Source: an uncultured Woeseiaceae bacterium
GTDB lineage: Bacteria > Pseudomonadota > Gammaproteobacteria > Steroidobacterales > Woeseiaceae
DNA length: 35,582 nucleotides
Assembly: GCA_947258485.1 (NCBI GenBank)
Contig: CAMYIS010000294.1
Location: forward strand, 1 to 35,582
Direction of reading: 5' to 3'
Shown: positions 9,953 to 33,928 of the stretch, piece after piece
How positions within the stretch are numbered: the first letter of the stretch is position 1
Layout of the letters: every line of letters starts with the position of its first letter
Made by a program: the position numbers and the translations under genes
Notes under the pieces: generated by a model
What the model saw: only the letters and a program-made list of their open reading frames with translations
Databases searched by the model: none
What the model was told of the DNA's origin: nothing

Positions 9953-10549
9953 CTATCCCTTGTTTTTCGCCATTGCGGCGCACGTCCCGTGGCGGAAACA
10001 GCCGGTCACGTGGTCGTTCACCATGCCGGTCGCCTGCATATGTGCATAGATAATCGTGCTGCCAACAAACCTGAATCCGCGCTTTTTGAGATCTTTGCTC
10101 AATGCATCCGACTGCGGCGACGTTGCCGGCACCTCGCTATCTTTTTCGAAAGCATTCTGGACCGGTTCACCATCGACAAATTGCCAGACGTAATCGCAAA
10201 ATGTACCGAACTCCTTCTGCACGTTAAGAAAAGCTTTTGCATTTGTCACGGCCGACTCAACCTTGAGACGATTCCTGACGATAGACGGATCCAGCAGTAA
10301 CTTCTCAACGCGTTTTTTCGTAAAACGAGCAACCTTCTCCGGGTCGAATTCTGCAAACAGTTTGCGGTAACCATCGCGTTTGTTCAGTATGGTTGACCAG
10401 CTCAGGCCCGCCTGCGCTCCTTCGAGCACGAGGAATTCGAACTGCCTTCGATCGTCCCACACGGGCACGCCCCACTCTTTGTCGTGGTACGCAATGTAAT
10501 CGAGGCTAACGCCTTCGGCCCACTTGCAGCGCGTGACAGCTTTACTCAT
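9953..10549 (-). CDS. tag: DNA-3-methyladenine glycosylase I
   Basis: CKWAEG...YIAYHDKEWGVPVWDDRRQFEFLVLEGAQAGLSWSTIL...YGHMQA-like tail (GSTIIYAHMQATGMVNDHVTGCFRH). Confidence 0.95.
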   Translation of the reverse strand: MSKAVTRCKWAEGVSLDYIAYHDKEWGVPVWDDRRQFEFLVLEGAQAGLSWSTILNKRDGYRKLFAEFDPEKVARFTKKRVEKLLLDPSIVRNRLKVESAVTNAKAFLNVQKEFGTFCDYVWQFVDGEPVQNAFEKDSEVPATSPQSDALSKDLKKRGFRFVGSTIIYAHMQATGMVNDHVTGCFRHGTCAAMAKNKG

Positions 10550-10634
10550 AGCGGTATCTTTGCAAATTTGGAGCCCTAATCTAACAGTCAAATTCTCCGC
10601 GGTCATCCGGCATAAATAGCTATTTGCATAAAAA

Positions 10635-10656
10635 AGCCCGCGCAATTGCGCGGGCT
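10635..10656 (-). terminator. Rho-independent terminator downstream of the EGSCG-repeat gene
   Basis: Perfect 22-bp palindrome AGCCCGCGCAATTGCGCGGGCT; minus-strand reading is followed by TTTTT. Confidence 0.85.
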
Positions 10657-10682
10657 TTATTGCACTACTTTTGAGGCTGGTT

Positions 10683-11102
10683 TTAAGCAGAGCCCCCGCA
10701 GGAGCCTTCGCCTTTCTTCTCATCCGTGTCAGCTCCGCAAGAGCCTTCGCCACAGCTACCTTCGCCTTCTTTCTCGCCACAGCTACCTTCGCCTTCCTTG
10801 TCAGCACCGCAGGAGCCTTCGCCGCAGCTACCTTCGCCCTCTTTCTCGCCACAGCTGCCTTCGCCTTCCTTGTCAGCGCCACAGGATCCTTCACCGCAAC
10901 TGCCTTCGCCTTCTTTCTTGTCACCTTTGTCACCGCCACAACCACCTTCGGTCGCGCCGAGCATGTAACCGGCACTTAAGGTAGACATTGCAAACGGATT
11001 CTCGACAGAGTCTGCGTTCACCGCGCCGCTAAGCGCGAATGTTCCCGCCAATGCAGCGCCTACAGCCAGCGCAACCGGTTTAACTATTTTCTTTTCTGAC
11101 AT
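10683..11102 (-). CDS. HvfA-like EGxCG-repeat low-complexity protein (candidate RiPP metallophore/bufferin-type precursor)
   Basis: Signal-like N-terminus MSEKKIVKPVALAVGAALAGTFALSGAVNADSVENPFAMSTLSAGYMLG followed by nine EGSCG motifs and one EGGCG. Confidence 0.8.
   Translation of the reverse strand: MSEKKIVKPVALAVGAALAGTFALSGAVNADSVENPFAMSTLSAGYMLGATEGGCGGDKGDKKEGEGSCGEGSCGADKEGEGSCGEKEGEGSCGEGSCGADKEGEGSCGEKEGEGSCGEGSCGADTDEKKGEGSCGGSA
10735..10925. repeat. 72-bp in-frame tandem repeat, ~2.6 copies, inside the EGSCG gene
   Basis: Units begin at 10735, 10807 and 10879 (ccgcaagagcc..., ccgcaggagcc..., ccacaggatcc...) with exact 72-bp spacing. Confidence 0.85.
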
Positions 11103-11165
11103 CTTTAGATCTCCTACCAGGATTATGGCCCAAAACCGGGCGCTCGTTTGTCAATGAAGAGAGTC

Positions 11166-11897
11166 TCAGGTACTCCACTTCACTGAATTCAAAACACTCT
11201 TTTCGATGCGCTCGAGCTTTTCTTCCCGAGCGCCCATGATCGCGATGCTACCTGCGCCTATCGGCAAGATAACACCGTGAACGTTCTCACCATCCAGCGA
11301 AACGGCTTCCGCCACTGCTTCGTCAGGCATCAGAAGGATGGTTACCGGACCGTGTTCGCCCTGTATGACCAGGTGCGGCACGCTCTTGCCATTGATCTCG
11401 CAGCTACGAGCATAGGTAATCAGCCCCGCGCTGTGATCCAGCTGCGCGACATCCGCGGGCACAACCTTCGCAAGGCGAGTGTCGGTGACGGGTGTGCTCG
11501 ACGCTCTCAGCGCGACCGGCTCATGATCGAGGTGCGCCAGCACCTCTTCGCCCAGCGAGTCATAGTGAACGCCGACGCCAAACATGCGAACACCAACGAA
11601 CGCTGCGAGCAGGACCGTCGCGGCCAGTGCAAACCACGCGGGTTTCGAGAACGGTTTGCGTGCCGCTATGGACACTACGTTCTCTGTCTCGATCTCGGGT
11701 AGCTGCAGGAGCTTCAGCTCGGGGACAGTAATCTGCATCGCCTTCGCAATTTTCAGGTTCAGCGACTGAATGTCACGTCGAAATGCCTGGCATTCGCCGC
11801 ACGAAGACAGGTGTCCGGCACCGCCGTCAAACGTCGGATCCGCTGAGATCATTTCCCTGTATTCGTCGCAGTTCATCAATTTGGTCACCGGGCTCAC
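11166..11897 (-). CDS. Anti-sigma-factor-like membrane protein (DUF3379 type)
   Basis: N-terminal MNCDEYREMISADP...HLSSCGECQAFRRD zinc-finger-like motif, one TM segment (PAWFALAATVLLAAFVGVRMF); start overlaps the sigma factor stop. Confidence 0.8.
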   Translation of the reverse strand: MSPVTKLMNCDEYREMISADPTFDGGAGHLSSCGECQAFRRDIQSLNLKIAKAMQITVPELKLLQLPEIETENVVSIAARKPFSKPAWFALAATVLLAAFVGVRMFGVGVHYDSLGEEVLAHLDHEPVALRASSTPVTDTRLAKVVPADVAQLDHSAGLITYARSCEINGKSVPHLVIQGEHGPVTILLMPDEAVAEAVSLDGENVHGVILPIGAGSIAIMGAREEKLERIEKSVLNSVKWST

Positions 11898-12409
11898 GAG
11901 CGTTCCTCGTCAGCCACTTTTTCCTTCAGCTTTAGTCGGGCCCGGTGCAGGCGCGTTAGTACCGCACCCTGCTTCAGACCCATCATCTCTCCAATCTCGG
12001 TGGTGCTGTAGCCCATCAGGACCTGCAGAACCAGCGGTTCTCTGTAATCGTCATCGAGCTCGTAGATCGACTCGCGCAGCTCCTCGAGCTCTTCGTTGGG
12101 CGCCTCGGCCAGCAGTGCCGCCTGAGATGCCGTCAAATTATCTATGTCAACCGTTTCCAGCCGTCGCCGCTCAAAATAGCGGGCGTTTTCCCGTCGTACG
12201 ATCGTCAGCAGCCAGTGTTTGGCAGCGGCATCGTCGCGCAGCGCATCCAGCGACTTCCAGGCCCGTAGCAACGCCTCCTGGACAACGTCCTCCGCTATCG
12301 CCTTGTCCCTGCAGAGCCACGCCGCGTAGCGGTACATATCGGCGTGAAATACCGCCACTATGCGGTCGAACCTTCGCCTTCGCGCGGCCTCAGCCCTGCT
12401 AGTGTTCAT
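11894..12409 (-). CDS. ECF-type RNA polymerase sigma-70 factor
   Basis: Region 2 (YRYAAWLCRDKAIAEDVVQEALLRAWKSLDAL) and region 4 (YREPLVLQVLMGYSTTEIGEMMGLKQGAVLTRLHRARLKLKE). Confidence 0.95.
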   Translation of the reverse strand: MNTSRAEAARRRRFDRIVAVFHADMYRYAAWLCRDKAIAEDVVQEALLRAWKSLDALRDDAAAKHWLLTIVRRENARYFERRRLETVDIDNLTASQAALLAEAPNEELEELRESIYELDDDYREPLVLQVLMGYSTTEIGEMMGLKQGAVLTRLHRARLKLKEKVADEERS

Positions 12410-12524
12410 ACGAGATGACCCGCCTCATGTGGCATTTATTACCGGAATCCTTCAATACTGTGATTAATACGTGGAAACCGTAGCTAAATACATGGAAAAT
12501 AAGAACTTCTCTTTATTATTCTAG

Positions 12525-13543
<1,019 letters not shown>

Positions 13544-13544
<1 letters not shown>

Positions 13545-29281: not shown

Positions 29282-30859
29282 ATGTATGCATCCCACGGCT
29301 TTTTGCGATCCGACATCGGCGACGTTGACGTGCTTTACCACGACGGTGTGTTTCACCTCTTTCATCTGGTGTTGCCCAACCATGACTTTATCGCTCATGC
29401 CGTAAGCAACGACGGGCTCAGTTGGCGCCGTGTGAAAAACGCGCTGTATGTCGGTGAACCCGGTGCATGGGATGATGACATGCTGTGGACAATGCACGTT
29501 AGCCCAGACCCCTACCAGCCGGGGCGGTGGCGCATGTTTTACACAGGACTCAGCCGTCACGAATATGGGCGGGTACAGCGTGTGGGGCTGGCGACATCGA
29601 CTGACTTGCTGAATTGGAATCGTGTGGATGGTGAAGGATATCCGCTGGAGGTATCGAGTTCGTACTACGAATCAAGTGTCGATGAGGGCCGAAGATGGGT
29701 GAGTTTCCGAGATCCATTTTTTTATCAGGACCCAGAGAGTGGCCGGCGGATGTTGATCGCATCGGCCCGCGTCAACACAGGCCCCTTAGTGCGACGAGGA
29801 TGCGTGTGTGTGGCCGATGAAGTTTCTCCGGGGAATTTTGAGTTTAAGCCCCCATTGCACCAGCCACGGATCTACGATGACGTAGAGGTGCCTAATCTAT
29901 TGCAAATCAATGGCCGGTATTTTCTGTTGGGGTCTATCCGCGAAGATACGAAAGTCCATTACTGGTATGCGGACGAGTTGGATGGGCCTTACCTGAACTT
30001 TTTTGACAACGTCTTGTTACCCAGTGGCAATTATGCGGCGCGTGGCTGTCAGTTCGGCGATCAGTGGCTGCTCTTTAATTTTTTCACAAAACAAGAAAAC
30101 CATTTTGGCAAAGACATCACCAAAAAATTATTGCCTCCGCCGAAGCATCTGGTGACAGACTCGACCGGTCGACTACGGCTAAAGTCATACGGCGGTTTTG
30201 ACGCGCTTGTGCAACATCAATGCACGGTTTCCATCCCCGATAAATTGGAGCGCCTGTTTGATAACCCCTTGGCGTATTCCAAGGGTTCCCAGGAAGAGAT
30301 GCATTTGGGGTGCCCGAGTGGATACGAAGCTTTCTTGCTGCCGAATGATTTTGAAAGTTTCAGACTGCGCGCGCAGATCGGTCTGGAAGGGTCGGGGAAG
30401 TGTGGCATGGTGCTGCGTGTGAACGCTCACGGCGATGGCTATTACTTGTCGTTAGACTTGTTCAAGGGGGTGGCGCAACTGCGGGCGTGGGGGGTGAACG
30501 GGCCAGCCGAGTCAGAGCACGCATTTACTTATGAGCAATTGCAGGCGGGGTATTTCGTCAGTCGTGACGAGGGGCCATGGGACCTGGAAGTGCTGGCGCA
30601 TGGCATGTATCTGGAAGTATCCATCAATGGGTATGTAATATTGAGCCTTGTGGATGATGCCTATGGCGATGGAAAGCTGGGCTTCTATACCGAATCCGCA
30701 CAGATTGTTTTACGCCACATGAGTGTGGAAAAATTATACCCACCCGAGCAGGAAGAGCCGAGCGGACCGATGTACACGTCAATCACGACACAACCGCCGC
30801 CGGACATGGTGCCAACAGACCTGATTGACGGCCAGCCCGAAAAAAAACGCATTGAGTAA
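29282..30859 (+). CDS. GH32/GH68-clan-like glycoside hydrolase (putative sucrose hydrolase)
   Basis: Beta-propeller-style motifs: DVDVLYHDGVFHLFHLV, SFRDPFFYQDPESG (RDP), VEVPNLLQINGRYFLLGS (E-x-PNL). Confidence 0.75.
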   Translation: MYASHGFLRSDIGDVDVLYHDGVFHLFHLVLPNHDFIAHAVSNDGLSWRRVKNALYVGEPGAWDDDMLWTMHVSPDPYQPGRWRMFYTGLSRHEYGRVQRVGLATSTDLLNWNRVDGEGYPLEVSSSYYESSVDEGRRWVSFRDPFFYQDPESGRRMLIASARVNTGPLVRRGCVCVADEVSPGNFEFKPPLHQPRIYDDVEVPNLLQINGRYFLLGSIREDTKVHYWYADELDGPYLNFFDNVLLPSGNYAARGCQFGDQWLLFNFFTKQENHFGKDITKKLLPPPKHLVTDSTGRLRLKSYGGFDALVQHQCTVSIPDKLERLFDNPLAYSKGSQEEMHLGCPSGYEAFLLPNDFESFRLRAQIGLEGSGKCGMVLRVNAHGDGYYLSLDLFKGVAQLRAWGVNGPAESEHAFTYEQLQAGYFVSRDEGPWDLEVLAHGMYLEVSINGYVILSLVDDAYGDGKLGFYTESAQIVLRHMSVEKLYPPEQEEPSGPMYTSITTQPPPDMVPTDLIDGQPEKKRIE

Positions 30860-31619
30860 TTTGGGAAAAATACAACCCAACCAGTGGCTGCTGATCAGTG
30901 ACGTGGACGACACACTGACCGGCGACGCATCTGCCCTGCAGGATTTCGTGCAACAGGTTGCAAAGCGACAGCCTAGACTTTTTGTCGCGCTCAATTCCAG
31001 CCGTCCCGCGGACAGCGTCGATGCGACACTACGCCAGGTTTTTCCTAAGAACTTCACACCTGATGCGATCATTACAGCGATGGGGACGCAGATCAGGGTA
31101 GAAGGCGAGTGTGTGCAGGCGTGGACGGAACAATTCTCAAACTGGCCGCGGGCAGCGATCGTCAATGCCGTATTGTCCTGTGGCCATCGTGCTCATGACG
31201 ATGAATATCAGACGGAACACAAAGCCAGCTTTGCGGTGCCCCGTGGAGAGGCGCAGGCCCAGGTCATCACGGAGCTCGAGCGTTTGGCCCTGCCGTGTCG
31301 CGTGATTGCTTCGGGTCAGGACGATCTGGACATTCTTCCTCCCCGGGGGGGGAAAGACCATGCCACGTTGTTTCTGGCCAAGTTGCTCGGTGTTGACGCC
31401 CAGACGCTTCTGGTGGTGGCGGGTGACTCAGCCAATGACCTGGCGATGTTTCAGGTGGCGCCGCACGCCATCGCTGTGGGCAATGCGCGAACGGAGTTGC
31501 TCCAAGGCATGCCATCTGAATCCAGCTACCACGCCAATGCCCATCATGCCGCAGGTGTTCTGGAAGGCCTGGAACACTTTGGTGTATGGGATTCACCTGG
31601 GATCGGCCAGAGGGAATAA
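30825..31619 (+). CDS. HAD-family sucrose-phosphate phosphatase-like protein; start uncertain (TTG)
   Basis: WLLISDVDDTLTGD (HAD motif I), ALNSSRPADSV, AIITAMGTQI, GGKDHATLFLAKLLG, VVAGDSANDLAMF (motif IV). Confidence 0.85.
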   Translation: MTASPKKNALSNLGKIQPNQWLLISDVDDTLTGDASALQDFVQQVAKRQPRLFVALNSSRPADSVDATLRQVFPKNFTPDAIITAMGTQIRVEGECVQAWTEQFSNWPRAAIVNAVLSCGHRAHDDEYQTEHKASFAVPRGEAQAQVITELERLALPCRVIASGQDDLDILPPRGGKDHATLFLAKLLGVDAQTLLVVAGDSANDLAMFQVAPHAIAVGNARTELLQGMPSESSYHANAHHAAGVLEGLEHFGVWDSPGIGQRE

Positions 31620-31666
31620 ATCAACATGTATACTGTGTCTACTCTCAGTCTGACTCTTTAATCAGA

Positions 31667-32968
31667 ATGCAGCTATCTGTGTCACCGCAGTCCAATGGCT
31701 CGATCCTCATGATTTCCCTGCACGGCTACGTTGCAGGCAGTCCCGAACTCGGAAAACCCGATACGGGGGGGCAGGTTGTTTTTGTGCTGGAACTGGCCAA
31801 ACGGTTCGCCCGGCTGGGCTATAGAGTCGATGTCCTGACCCGACAATTTGAGGGCCAGCCCGCACAAGACAAGATCAATCCCAACCTCCGTGTCTGGCGC
31901 GTGCCGTTCGGCGGGAAGCATTTCATCCGCAAAGAAGACATGCATGATTGGTTTGGTGATTTTGTCACCAATACATTGGCGATCATCCGCAAAAAAGCGC
32001 TGAAGTACGACTTTGTCAATAGTCACTATTGGGACGCGGGCGTGTCGGGCCAAAAAATCGCTGAGGAGTTGCAGATCCCTCACATCCACACGCCGCACTC
32101 GCTGGGCTGGTGGAAGCGACAACGTATGAAAGGCGCGAAAGAGGCCGGTGAAGGCGGGAGCCTGCGCTTTGATGAGCGCATCCAGAAAGAATTTTTGCTT
32201 TTCCGTTCTTGTGATCATGTGATCGCCACCAGTGAACAGCAAGTGGACCTAGTCGAGCGCGAATACCAGCTCCCCAATGATCACATCACCATGATCCCTC
32301 CGGGAATCGACGAAGCCCGGTTTACGCCCGCCCCTCCATTGCAGCTTGAGGCGATCCGCAAGAAGCTTAAGATGCGCGAAACCGATGTTTATGTCGTGGG
32401 TCGAGCTGCGCATAACAAGGGTTATGACCTTATTATTAAGGCTTTGCCCCACCTGAAAAAACTTCAGCCCAAGGCTCGTCTGGTTCTCGCGGCTGGTGCC
32501 AACTCTGCGCAAGACGAGAAACTCATCAGCAAGTGGAAAAAAATTGCGACCGACGCCGGCATCGGGCGGTCGATCAAGTGGCTGGGCTACATTGATGATG
32601 AAGACCTCGCGGACTATTACCGCGCGCCGGGTATTTTCACATTGCCCTCACGCTACGAACCCTTTGGTATGACCGCGGTCGAGGCCATGTCCTGCGGCAC
32701 ACCCACCGTGCTCACCACGCACGGCGGGTTGTTCCAACAAATCGAGTTCGGCAAACACGCGCTTGTGGCAGACCCCAAACGCCCCGCTGAGTTTGCCGCC
32801 ATGCTCAGCATGCCCATGCAATACCCCTGGTTGCGCGAGACACTCACGGTCGAGGGCGCCCGCTTCGCCCGGCGCGCTTTCGGCTGGACCGGCATTGCCC
32901 GCCGAACGCTCCAGGTCTTTGATCAGTTCAAAGGCAAATACCAGCGCAACCGCCGCGATGATGAGTGA
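31667..32968 (+). CDS. Sucrose-phosphate synthase-like GT4 glycosyltransferase
   Basis: ISLHGYVAGSPELGKPDTGGQVVFVLELAKRFARLGYRVDVLTRQF, HTPHSLGWWKRQRM, PSRYEPFGMTAVEAMSCGTPTVLTTHGG. Confidence 0.88.
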   Translation: MQLSVSPQSNGSILMISLHGYVAGSPELGKPDTGGQVVFVLELAKRFARLGYRVDVLTRQFEGQPAQDKINPNLRVWRVPFGGKHFIRKEDMHDWFGDFVTNTLAIIRKKALKYDFVNSHYWDAGVSGQKIAEELQIPHIHTPHSLGWWKRQRMKGAKEAGEGGSLRFDERIQKEFLLFRSCDHVIATSEQQVDLVEREYQLPNDHITMIPPGIDEARFTPAPPLQLEAIRKKLKMRETDVYVVGRAAHNKGYDLIIKALPHLKKLQPKARLVLAAGANSAQDEKLISKWKKIATDAGIGRSIKWLGYIDDEDLADYYRAPGIFTLPSRYEPFGMTAVEAMSCGTPTVLTTHGGLFQQIEFGKHALVADPKRPAEFAAMLSMPMQYPWLRETLTVEGARFARRAFGWTGIARRTLQVFDQFKGKYQRNRRDDE

Positions 32969-33019
32969 CAAACTTCCTGTGACTTTTTTCTTGACCTGTA
33001 AACTTATTTGATCAATGAG

Positions 33020-33928
33020 ATGATCGAATCGAAGCTAATCGTTGTCGGATTGGGCGAAGCTCTATTTGATGTGTTTGCCTCAGGCAAGAAGCTCGGTGGC
33101 GCGCCACTGAATGTCGCGGCGCATGCCCATCAACTGCTTGCCAGCGTTGGTGGGTGTGGTGCGGTCGTGACGCGCGTTGCTCACGACGAACTGGGCGTTG
33201 AATTGATGCAGCAAGTGCGATCCCTGGGACTTGACACTTCATATATCCAACAAAACGCGGACGCTCCGACCGGGCGCGTTGAAGTGCAACAACACGAGGA
33301 TGGCGGCCATACCTTTCACATCGAGAGGCCATCCGCCTGGGATGAAATTGAGTTTACCCGTCAAGCGGAACAGCTGGCTCATCAATGCGATGCCGTCGCT
33401 TTTGGGTCTTTGGCGCAACGATCCACCACGTCAAGATCATCGATCCGTTCATTCCTGGCCGCAGCCCCTCAGGCAATCAAGTTGTTTGATGTCAACCTAC
33501 GATCCTCTCGAGGACACGATTTCTTCGATGGCCCCATACTGATGGACGGGTGTCAGGCGGCCGACCTGGTTAAACTCAACGAGGAAGAACTGGAAACCGT
33601 CTGCCAACTCACCGAAGTGTCGGACCCTGGCGCGTTGCGCACTCGGTTTGACCTGCAAGCGGTCATCCTGACCCGAGGCCCGAAGGGGACCGCTGCGCTC
33701 GCTGCGGATGGATGGATCGAGGGTTCTGAAATCCAGTATCCGCGCATGGACGGTGCGGATACCGTCGGGGCGGGTGATGCGTGCAGCGCTGGCTTGCTGT
33801 CCGCGCTGGTCAGTGGGAAAAACTTAGCGCAAGCACTGGAACTGGCCAACCACATGGGGGCGTATGTTGCAGGACAAATCGGAGCGACGCCCACGCTGCC
33901 GGAATCGTTGCAGGGCTGGCTGGCTTGA
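33020..33928 (+). CDS. PfkB-family carbohydrate kinase, probable fructokinase
   Basis: GLGEALFDVFASGKKLGGAPLNVAAHAHQL; VILTRGPKGTAAL; DTVGAGDACSAGLLSALVSG (PfkB signature 2). Confidence 0.9.
   Translation: MIESKLIVVGLGEALFDVFASGKKLGGAPLNVAAHAHQLLASVGGCGAVVTRVAHDELGVELMQQVRSLGLDTSYIQQNADAPTGRVEVQQHEDGGHTFHIERPSAWDEIEFTRQAEQLAHQCDAVAFGSLAQRSTTSRSSIRSFLAAAPQAIKLFDVNLRSSRGHDFFDGPILMDGCQAADLVKLNEEELETVCQLTEVSDPGALRTRFDLQAVILTRGPKGTAALAADGWIEGSEIQYPRMDGADTVGAGDACSAGLLSALVSGKNLAQALELANHMGAYVAGQIGATPTLPESLQGWLA

Follow-up and report, generated by a model that had tools for sequence, protein, structure and literature searches.

A putative captophorin-type metal-buffering pathway divided between two distant loci that share an ECF-type promoter in Woeseiaceae

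The window, a 35,582-bp stretch of one contig from an uncultured Woeseiaceae bacterium (GCA_947258485.1, CAMYIS010000294.1), contains an open reading frame (ORF) whose predicted product resembles the HvfA-type precursors that are modified by MNIO (DUF692) enzymes and an HvfC-type partner, and no such enzyme is encoded beside it. How this precursor could be matured, if it is matured at all, was the question raised by the locus. The original prediction left two options, modification in trans by a distant enzyme and function as an unmodified Cys-rich metal buffer. The features bearing on the question are listed in Table 1; where genomes, contigs, loci, and other families of the order have to be told apart, they are designated by G, C, L, and f numbers.

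The ORF was confirmed on the minus strand with nine EGSCG motifs and one EGGCG motif, and the N terminus, predicted to be cleavable-signal-like, resembled a Sec signal by inspection, with a basic start, a hydrophobic stretch, and a putative cleavage site. Residues 1 to 30 were the best-conserved portion of the protein in a sequence alignment. The likeness to HvfA held for the HvfA KCGExKCG domain of NCBIfam (NF050137; 34.4 bits, cut-off 19.5) but not for the stricter HvfA equivalog (NF050188; 19.2 bits, cut-off 95), which was also missed by split-locus relatives with EGKCG motifs (43 to 77 bits). A Pfam search with the window HvfA gave no match. Because hvfA is encoded in 86 of 107 genomes of the family and its N terminus is strongly conserved, the ORF is not just a low-complexity frame that arose by chance. 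Two antisense ORFs across the repeats (10646-10984 and 10671-10979, plus strand) and a Lys/Ala-rich frame fused to tag (9953-10975, minus strand) were read as artifacts of the hvfA repeat. A small GCCC..GGGC hairpin located just 5' of the hvfA ribosome-binding site (11103-11165) is conserved, and doubled in some genera; covariation analysis gave it no support and its stability was no better than that of shuffled sequences, and no functional role is claimed for it on these grounds.

Table 1. Features of the precursor locus (window coordinates) and of the remote operon (contig C91)
Feature	Location	Strand	Remarks
hvfA, HvfA/oxazolin-type (captophorin) metallophore precursor	10683..11102	-	139 aa, 10 Cys
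Predicted Sec signal peptide, HvfA residues 1-30	11013..11102	-	cleavage between VNA and DS; inspection and conserved N terminus (alignment)
HvfA repeat region	10692..10949	-	9 EGSCG + 1 EGGCG
ECF-type promoter GTAATAA-N15-GGTC, before sigma gene	12417..12442	-	conserved sequence element
ECF sigma factor (PRK12517 type)	11894..12409	-	overlaps anti-sigma start
DUF3379 anti-sigma factor	11166..11897	-	PF11859, 99 bits
Intrinsic terminator after hvfA	10630..10658	-	perfect palindrome 10636-10655 + T run; fold z -3.2
tag (DNA-3-methyladenine glycosylase I)	9953..10549	-	conserved neighbor past terminator
hemB	12531..13544	+	conserved divergent neighbor, locus landmark only
hvfB	C91 10663-11391	-	
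hvfC	C91 9897-10667	-	
doxX	C91 9389-9886	-	

The description of this precursor as an orphan was correct in that it lies apart from any MNIO gene, but hvfA is the third and last gene of an ECF sigma/DUF3379/hvfA unit (12409-10683) and has a conserved partner operon. A gap of 63 bp separates the end of the DUF3379 gene from hvfA on the same strand. The start codon of the sigma gene lies 7 nt past the GTAATAA-N15-GGTC element, which is strongly conserved and laid out like an ECF promoter, and the mRNA of the sigma operon is possibly leaderless. From this promoter through the sigma, DUF3379, and hvfA genes to the terminator, the arrangement reads as one operon. As predicted, the next gene downstream is tag, beyond a perfect terminator (20-nt palindrome with a T6 tail) that separates it from the system, of which it is not thought to be part. 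A pattern-based terminator scan of the window did not report this terminator, an Rfam search returned subthreshold matches only, at the terminator hairpin, a sigma-70 promoter scan gave nothing useful, and a plasmid search gave no match. Between hemB and the sigma promoter (12443-12530), a conserved block like GATTTTCCCTGTATTTAGGTAGGGTTTCCACG was observed across the family, possibly a hemB promoter or operator. Elsewhere in the window (29282-33928), a GH32-like protein, a sucrose- or mannosylfructose-phosphate phosphatase/synthase pair, and a fructokinase were recognized by eye.

Sigma regions 2 and 4 were present in the product of the sigma gene, and its DUF3379 partner contained the sequence H29-x3-C33-x2-C36 (numbered from GTG at 11897, with ATG at 11876 being the likelier start), an HX3CX2C motif that we take to be the zinc-anti-sigma (ZAS) signature; the pair thus has the hallmarks of an ECF factor and a ZAS protein. 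This N-terminal motif is followed by a single transmembrane segment and a C-terminal periplasmic domain. Across 62 DUF3379 homologues drawn from Woeseiaceae and further families of its order, H122, C166, and H175 never varied and H125 and E126 hardly did, with the same conservation found again in a second alignment. These H/H/E/C/H residues of the periplasmic domain suggest a candidate metal site and, because they are conserved in a protein that also carries the ZAS motif, the trigger sensed would be a metal, perhaps copper. An AF2 model of DUF3379 was of moderate confidence (mean pLDDT, 76), and a Foldseek search with this model produced weak RseB/MucB-like matches, none of them significant.

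The genome that contains the window is a metagenome-assembled genome (MAG) of 3.03 Mb in 357 contigs (93% complete, 8% contaminated). A genome-wide search for DUF692/HvfB and HvfC, which had been proposed as a check, returned one of each, an MNIO gene (hvfB) and a DUF2063 gene (hvfC) that adjoin on contig C91 and are followed by doxX. Neither an MNIO nor a DUF2063 gene occurs within the window, so that for these two the predicted lack of a DUF692-, HvfC-, or DoxX-type gene beside the precursor was upheld. On C91 the operon lies between DUF1841, nth, and rsx genes at one end and a transporter gene with lpd at the opposite end, and no precursor was seen adjoining it. As assembled, hvfB is missing 126 bp that are present in the relatives inspected, a deletion that keeps the frame but costs the protein 42 residues, an invariant Glu-Asn among them (deletion site G000:C91:11059-11073, locus L003); hvfB passes the PF05114 family cut-off but does not retain all invariant residues, whereas those of the relatives are complete. 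The site 3 iron ligands of HvfB (N175, D242, and H244; PMC13419390) appear to fall outside the deleted stretch. Because the deletion removes the invariant Glu-Asn, the enzyme as assembled should be dead. The promoter, hvfC, and doxX around it look intact, and the deletion represents either a recent loss of the enzyme in this strain or an assembly error.

The separation of precursor and enzymes recurred throughout the family. MNIO genes were found in 87 of the 107 genomes, with both hvfA and MNIO in 83, neither in 17, hvfA alone in 3, and MNIO alone in 4, a co-occurrence that was significant without phylogenetic correction (Fisher test, P = 2.6e-13); most of the double absences were in small genomes (1 to 2 Mb). 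The two genes shared a contig in only 2 of the 83 genomes, both on megabase contigs, and were far apart there (104.7 kb versus 2,477 kb in G105 and 2,909 kb versus 814 kb in G011). In one genome of another family (G178), the loci were ~0.73 Mb apart on a single contig, and the single-contig separation of the hvfA and hvfB loci was 0.7 to 2.4 Mb overall. Fragmentation or contamination of the assembly was ruled out as the cause of the split, since genomes that have both loci on one and the same contig also show it. In the complete family loci inspected, the precursor locus had the order gor-aroE-hemB diverging from ECF-DUF3379-hvfA-tag, with the exception of G094, in which tag is ~4 kb off. G094 also has a second, divergent hvfA paralogue elsewhere (L078, 8573-9007), with a DoxX-like gene ~4.6 kb away. 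The maturase locus had the order rsx-nth-DUF1841-hvfB-hvfC-doxX in the family, and both arrangements recur in several other families of the order. Within a collection of named genomes, 70 of 80 HvfA loci contained ECF/DUF3379 and/or tag, none of them with MNIO within 4 kb, and the remaining 10 (Lysobacter plus a few more) had MNIO adjacent and no ECF/DUF3379.

A shared promoter sequence was found at the two loci. Exactly two GTAATAW-N15-GGTC sites were present in the genome of the window, one before the sigma operon (C294:12417-12442) and one before hvfB (C91:11421-11446). The genome of G094 also had exactly two, at its sigma and hvfB operons, and G044, G098, and G100 had three each, with both operons included. 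The element occurred at the same spacing 5' of hvfB at 18 of 18 loci in one set and at 24 of 25 in another, the sets overlapping in genomes and the single exception being truncated by a contig end. Distinct versions of the promoter numbered 38 for hvfB and 67 for the sigma operon, and their 15-base spacers differed widely. In 20 MNIO loci (660 kb, both strands), 19 exact sites were found, every one at the promoter of the MNIO operon. The pairing was repeated in families f3, f4 (G109), f5, f9, and f16 (G145), and the element was absent from clusters in which hvfA and hvfB adjoin. The exact motif was not found before hvfB in f11, f14, f8, and some f16 and f4 genomes, though the split is kept in them; in f11 and f14 the promoter may have drifted.

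Some relatives had extra sites just 5' of genes for exported thioredoxin/redoxin-like proteins (G098, G100, G101, and G105). In G105, the element also immediately preceded a VTT-pyridine-nucleotide oxidoreductase gene and the gene of a small membrane protein that resembles DoxX but gave no Pfam match. Several further matches inside genes are probably due to chance. A second MNIO operon in G011 has the same ECF-type promoter and a double BufA2 precursor (NF050166, 128.5 versus 60 bits; L104, 8897-9367), and in family f10 (L107, L119, and L129) ECF-DUF3379 adjoins MNIO and/or BufA2 precursors. Together with the other extra targets, these cases suggest that the ECF-DUF3379 regulator belongs to MNIO-made metal buffers generally. 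A broader reading, to which we give an even chance, takes in the DUF3379 family as a whole. Its members would be anti-sigma factors that sense metal (copper class) in the periplasm through an H-H-E-C-H site, and the ECF factors paired with them would govern a dispersed regulon of MNIO-made metal buffers with precursors of different types (HvfA and BufA2), split precursor/maturase loci included.

Ser instead of Lys at position 3 of the motif, which had been singled out as unusual, was found in 9 of the 10 motifs of the window HvfA but is a trait of the whole family and is also seen where MNIO is adjacent. EGSCG was the commonest motif of the family loci (367 of 431.G.CG motifs, some loci being counted twice) and occurred in clusters with adjacent MNIO (f15; loci L311 and L313); several other split-locus families have EGKCG instead. 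FonBC tolerates Ala, Arg, and Thr at position 3 and is blocked by Phe and Glu, and Ser is not among the variants named in the available portion of that report (PMC13097082). By analogy, Ser is probably tolerated as well and, because MNIO-adjacent clusters carry EGSCG and FonBC accepts Ala, Arg, and Thr, modification of EGSCG by HvfBC is likely. Residues that differ between the MNIOs of the EGSCG and EGKCG groups exist and were listed.

From the genes, the two gene orders, the separation and co-occurrence of the loci, their shared promoter, and the residue conservation of the anti-sigma factor, we infer a captophorin/oxazolin-type metal-buffering pathway that is split over two loci and joined by one ECF sigma regulon, a reading that we consider probable. 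Envelope metal stress, most likely from copper, would be sensed by the periplasmic domain of DUF3379, which would then free the ECF sigma factor. The latter would recognize GTAATAW-N15-GGTC before its own sigma/anti-sigma/hvfA operon and before the remote hvfB-hvfC-doxX operon, where the promoters are seen in the sequence. HvfBC would act on the cysteines of EGSCG, with 5-thiooxazoles as the product by precedent, and HvfA, exported via Sec, would bind metal in the periplasm, as extrapolated from characterized relatives.

Modification in trans by a distant enzyme is thus the better of the two options originally offered. The other, in which the Cys-rich HvfA would buffer metal or redox state in the periplasm without being modified, with the remote MNIO acting on different substrates, is quite unlikely and, except for the damaged hvfB of this genome, is not favored. 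It would fit the loss of 42 residues from the sole MNIO of this MAG and the presence of hvfA in one genome that is about 100% complete and in which MNIO was not detected (G063). However, the hvfB genes of relatives are intact and have a promoter and phyletic pattern in common with hvfA, and neither the scanned split-type hvfB loci nor the hvfA search of this genome yielded a further Cys-rich.G.CG precursor. That hvfA is a decaying, nonfunctional remnant left after the cluster moved is highly improbable: its isolated position and the damaged hvfB would agree with decay, but hvfA is kept in most family genomes, with signal peptide, repeats, and position conserved.

The shared element could also serve ECF factors in general or bind a different envelope-stress regulator; the two loci would then still be co-regulated, but not specifically by the hvfA-linked sigma factor. 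The extra sites that some relatives have 5' of genes for periplasmic thioredoxin/redoxin-like proteins and for the small DoxX-like membrane protein are consistent with such a role, and these genomes are expected to encode further ECF factors. This explanation is nevertheless unlikely, given that conservation is strongest at the sigma gene's own promoter, as in autoregulated ECF factors, that the genome of the window has two sites only, and that f4 genomes without a detected DUF3379 are also without the motif before hvfB.

For the preferred reading, a two-locus pathway under one ECF regulon, the promoter element reunites precursor with enzymes across megabases in several families and offers a means of matching other orphans with their partners. 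It is assumed in RiPP mining that precursor and enzyme genes lie together, and stand-alone MNIO precursors have been noted without an assigned partner. A metal-sensing anti-sigma factor would also be the first functional hypothesis for DUF3379, which was not mentioned in the open-access full text searched. The open-access papers searched described no two-locus captophorin regulon and no promoter that connects an orphan precursor with its maturase.

According to the available parts of the reports concerned, the chemistry of HvfA and FonA, the core genes, the sigma-NrsF pair of Buf1, and stand-alone precursors are already known (PMC12452194, PMC13097082, PMC13419390). Oxazolin (HvfA/HvfB/HvfC/HvfX, Haemophilus) and fontiphorin (FonABC) are grouped there as "captophorins," and the chemistry of HvfBC and FonBC has been characterized (PMC13419390, PMC13097082). 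The system described here resembles both in having a precursor (here predicted to be exported, as it is there) with paired five-residue Cys repeats, an MNIO, a DUF2063/RRE partner, and a doxX gene. Unlike them, it has Ser for Lys at position 3, encodes precursor and enzymes in two different operons, places the precursor gene in an ECF sigma/DUF3379 operon, and has an ECF-type promoter common to both operons. Buf1 bufferin clusters carry a sigma factor and an NrsF anti-sigma factor, and the survey, in its available portion, reports sigma genes for Buf1 clusters and none for those of Buf2 (PMC12452194). Here, too, the genes predict an exported copper buffer that is made by an MNIO and accompanied by a sigma/anti-sigma pair. 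In contrast to Buf1 as portrayed there, the anti-sigma factor is DUF3379 (PF11859, ZAS type), not NrsF, two loci are involved, and the precursor is of the HvfA type without a Pfam match, not DUF2282, with BufA2 in f10 and G011; neither NrsF nor a DUF2282 precursor was found at the window locus. The ECF-type sigma pair or promoter at the BufA2 loci of f10 and G011 contrasts with the distribution given in that portion of the survey (PMC12452194). Stand-alone bufferin precursor genes, which like this one do not adjoin an MNIO gene, have also been reported, with flanks called not conserved and no partner locus or shared promoter given in the text available (PMC12452194), whereas a conserved neighborhood, a partner locus, and a shared promoter were all found for Woeseiaceae hvfA. 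Contiguous hvfA-hvfBC clusters (Lysobacter, f15, and f2) have a homologous precursor, MNIO, and partner, some of them also with EGSCG, but there the genes are adjacent, without ECF/DUF3379 and without GTAATAW-N15-GGTC.
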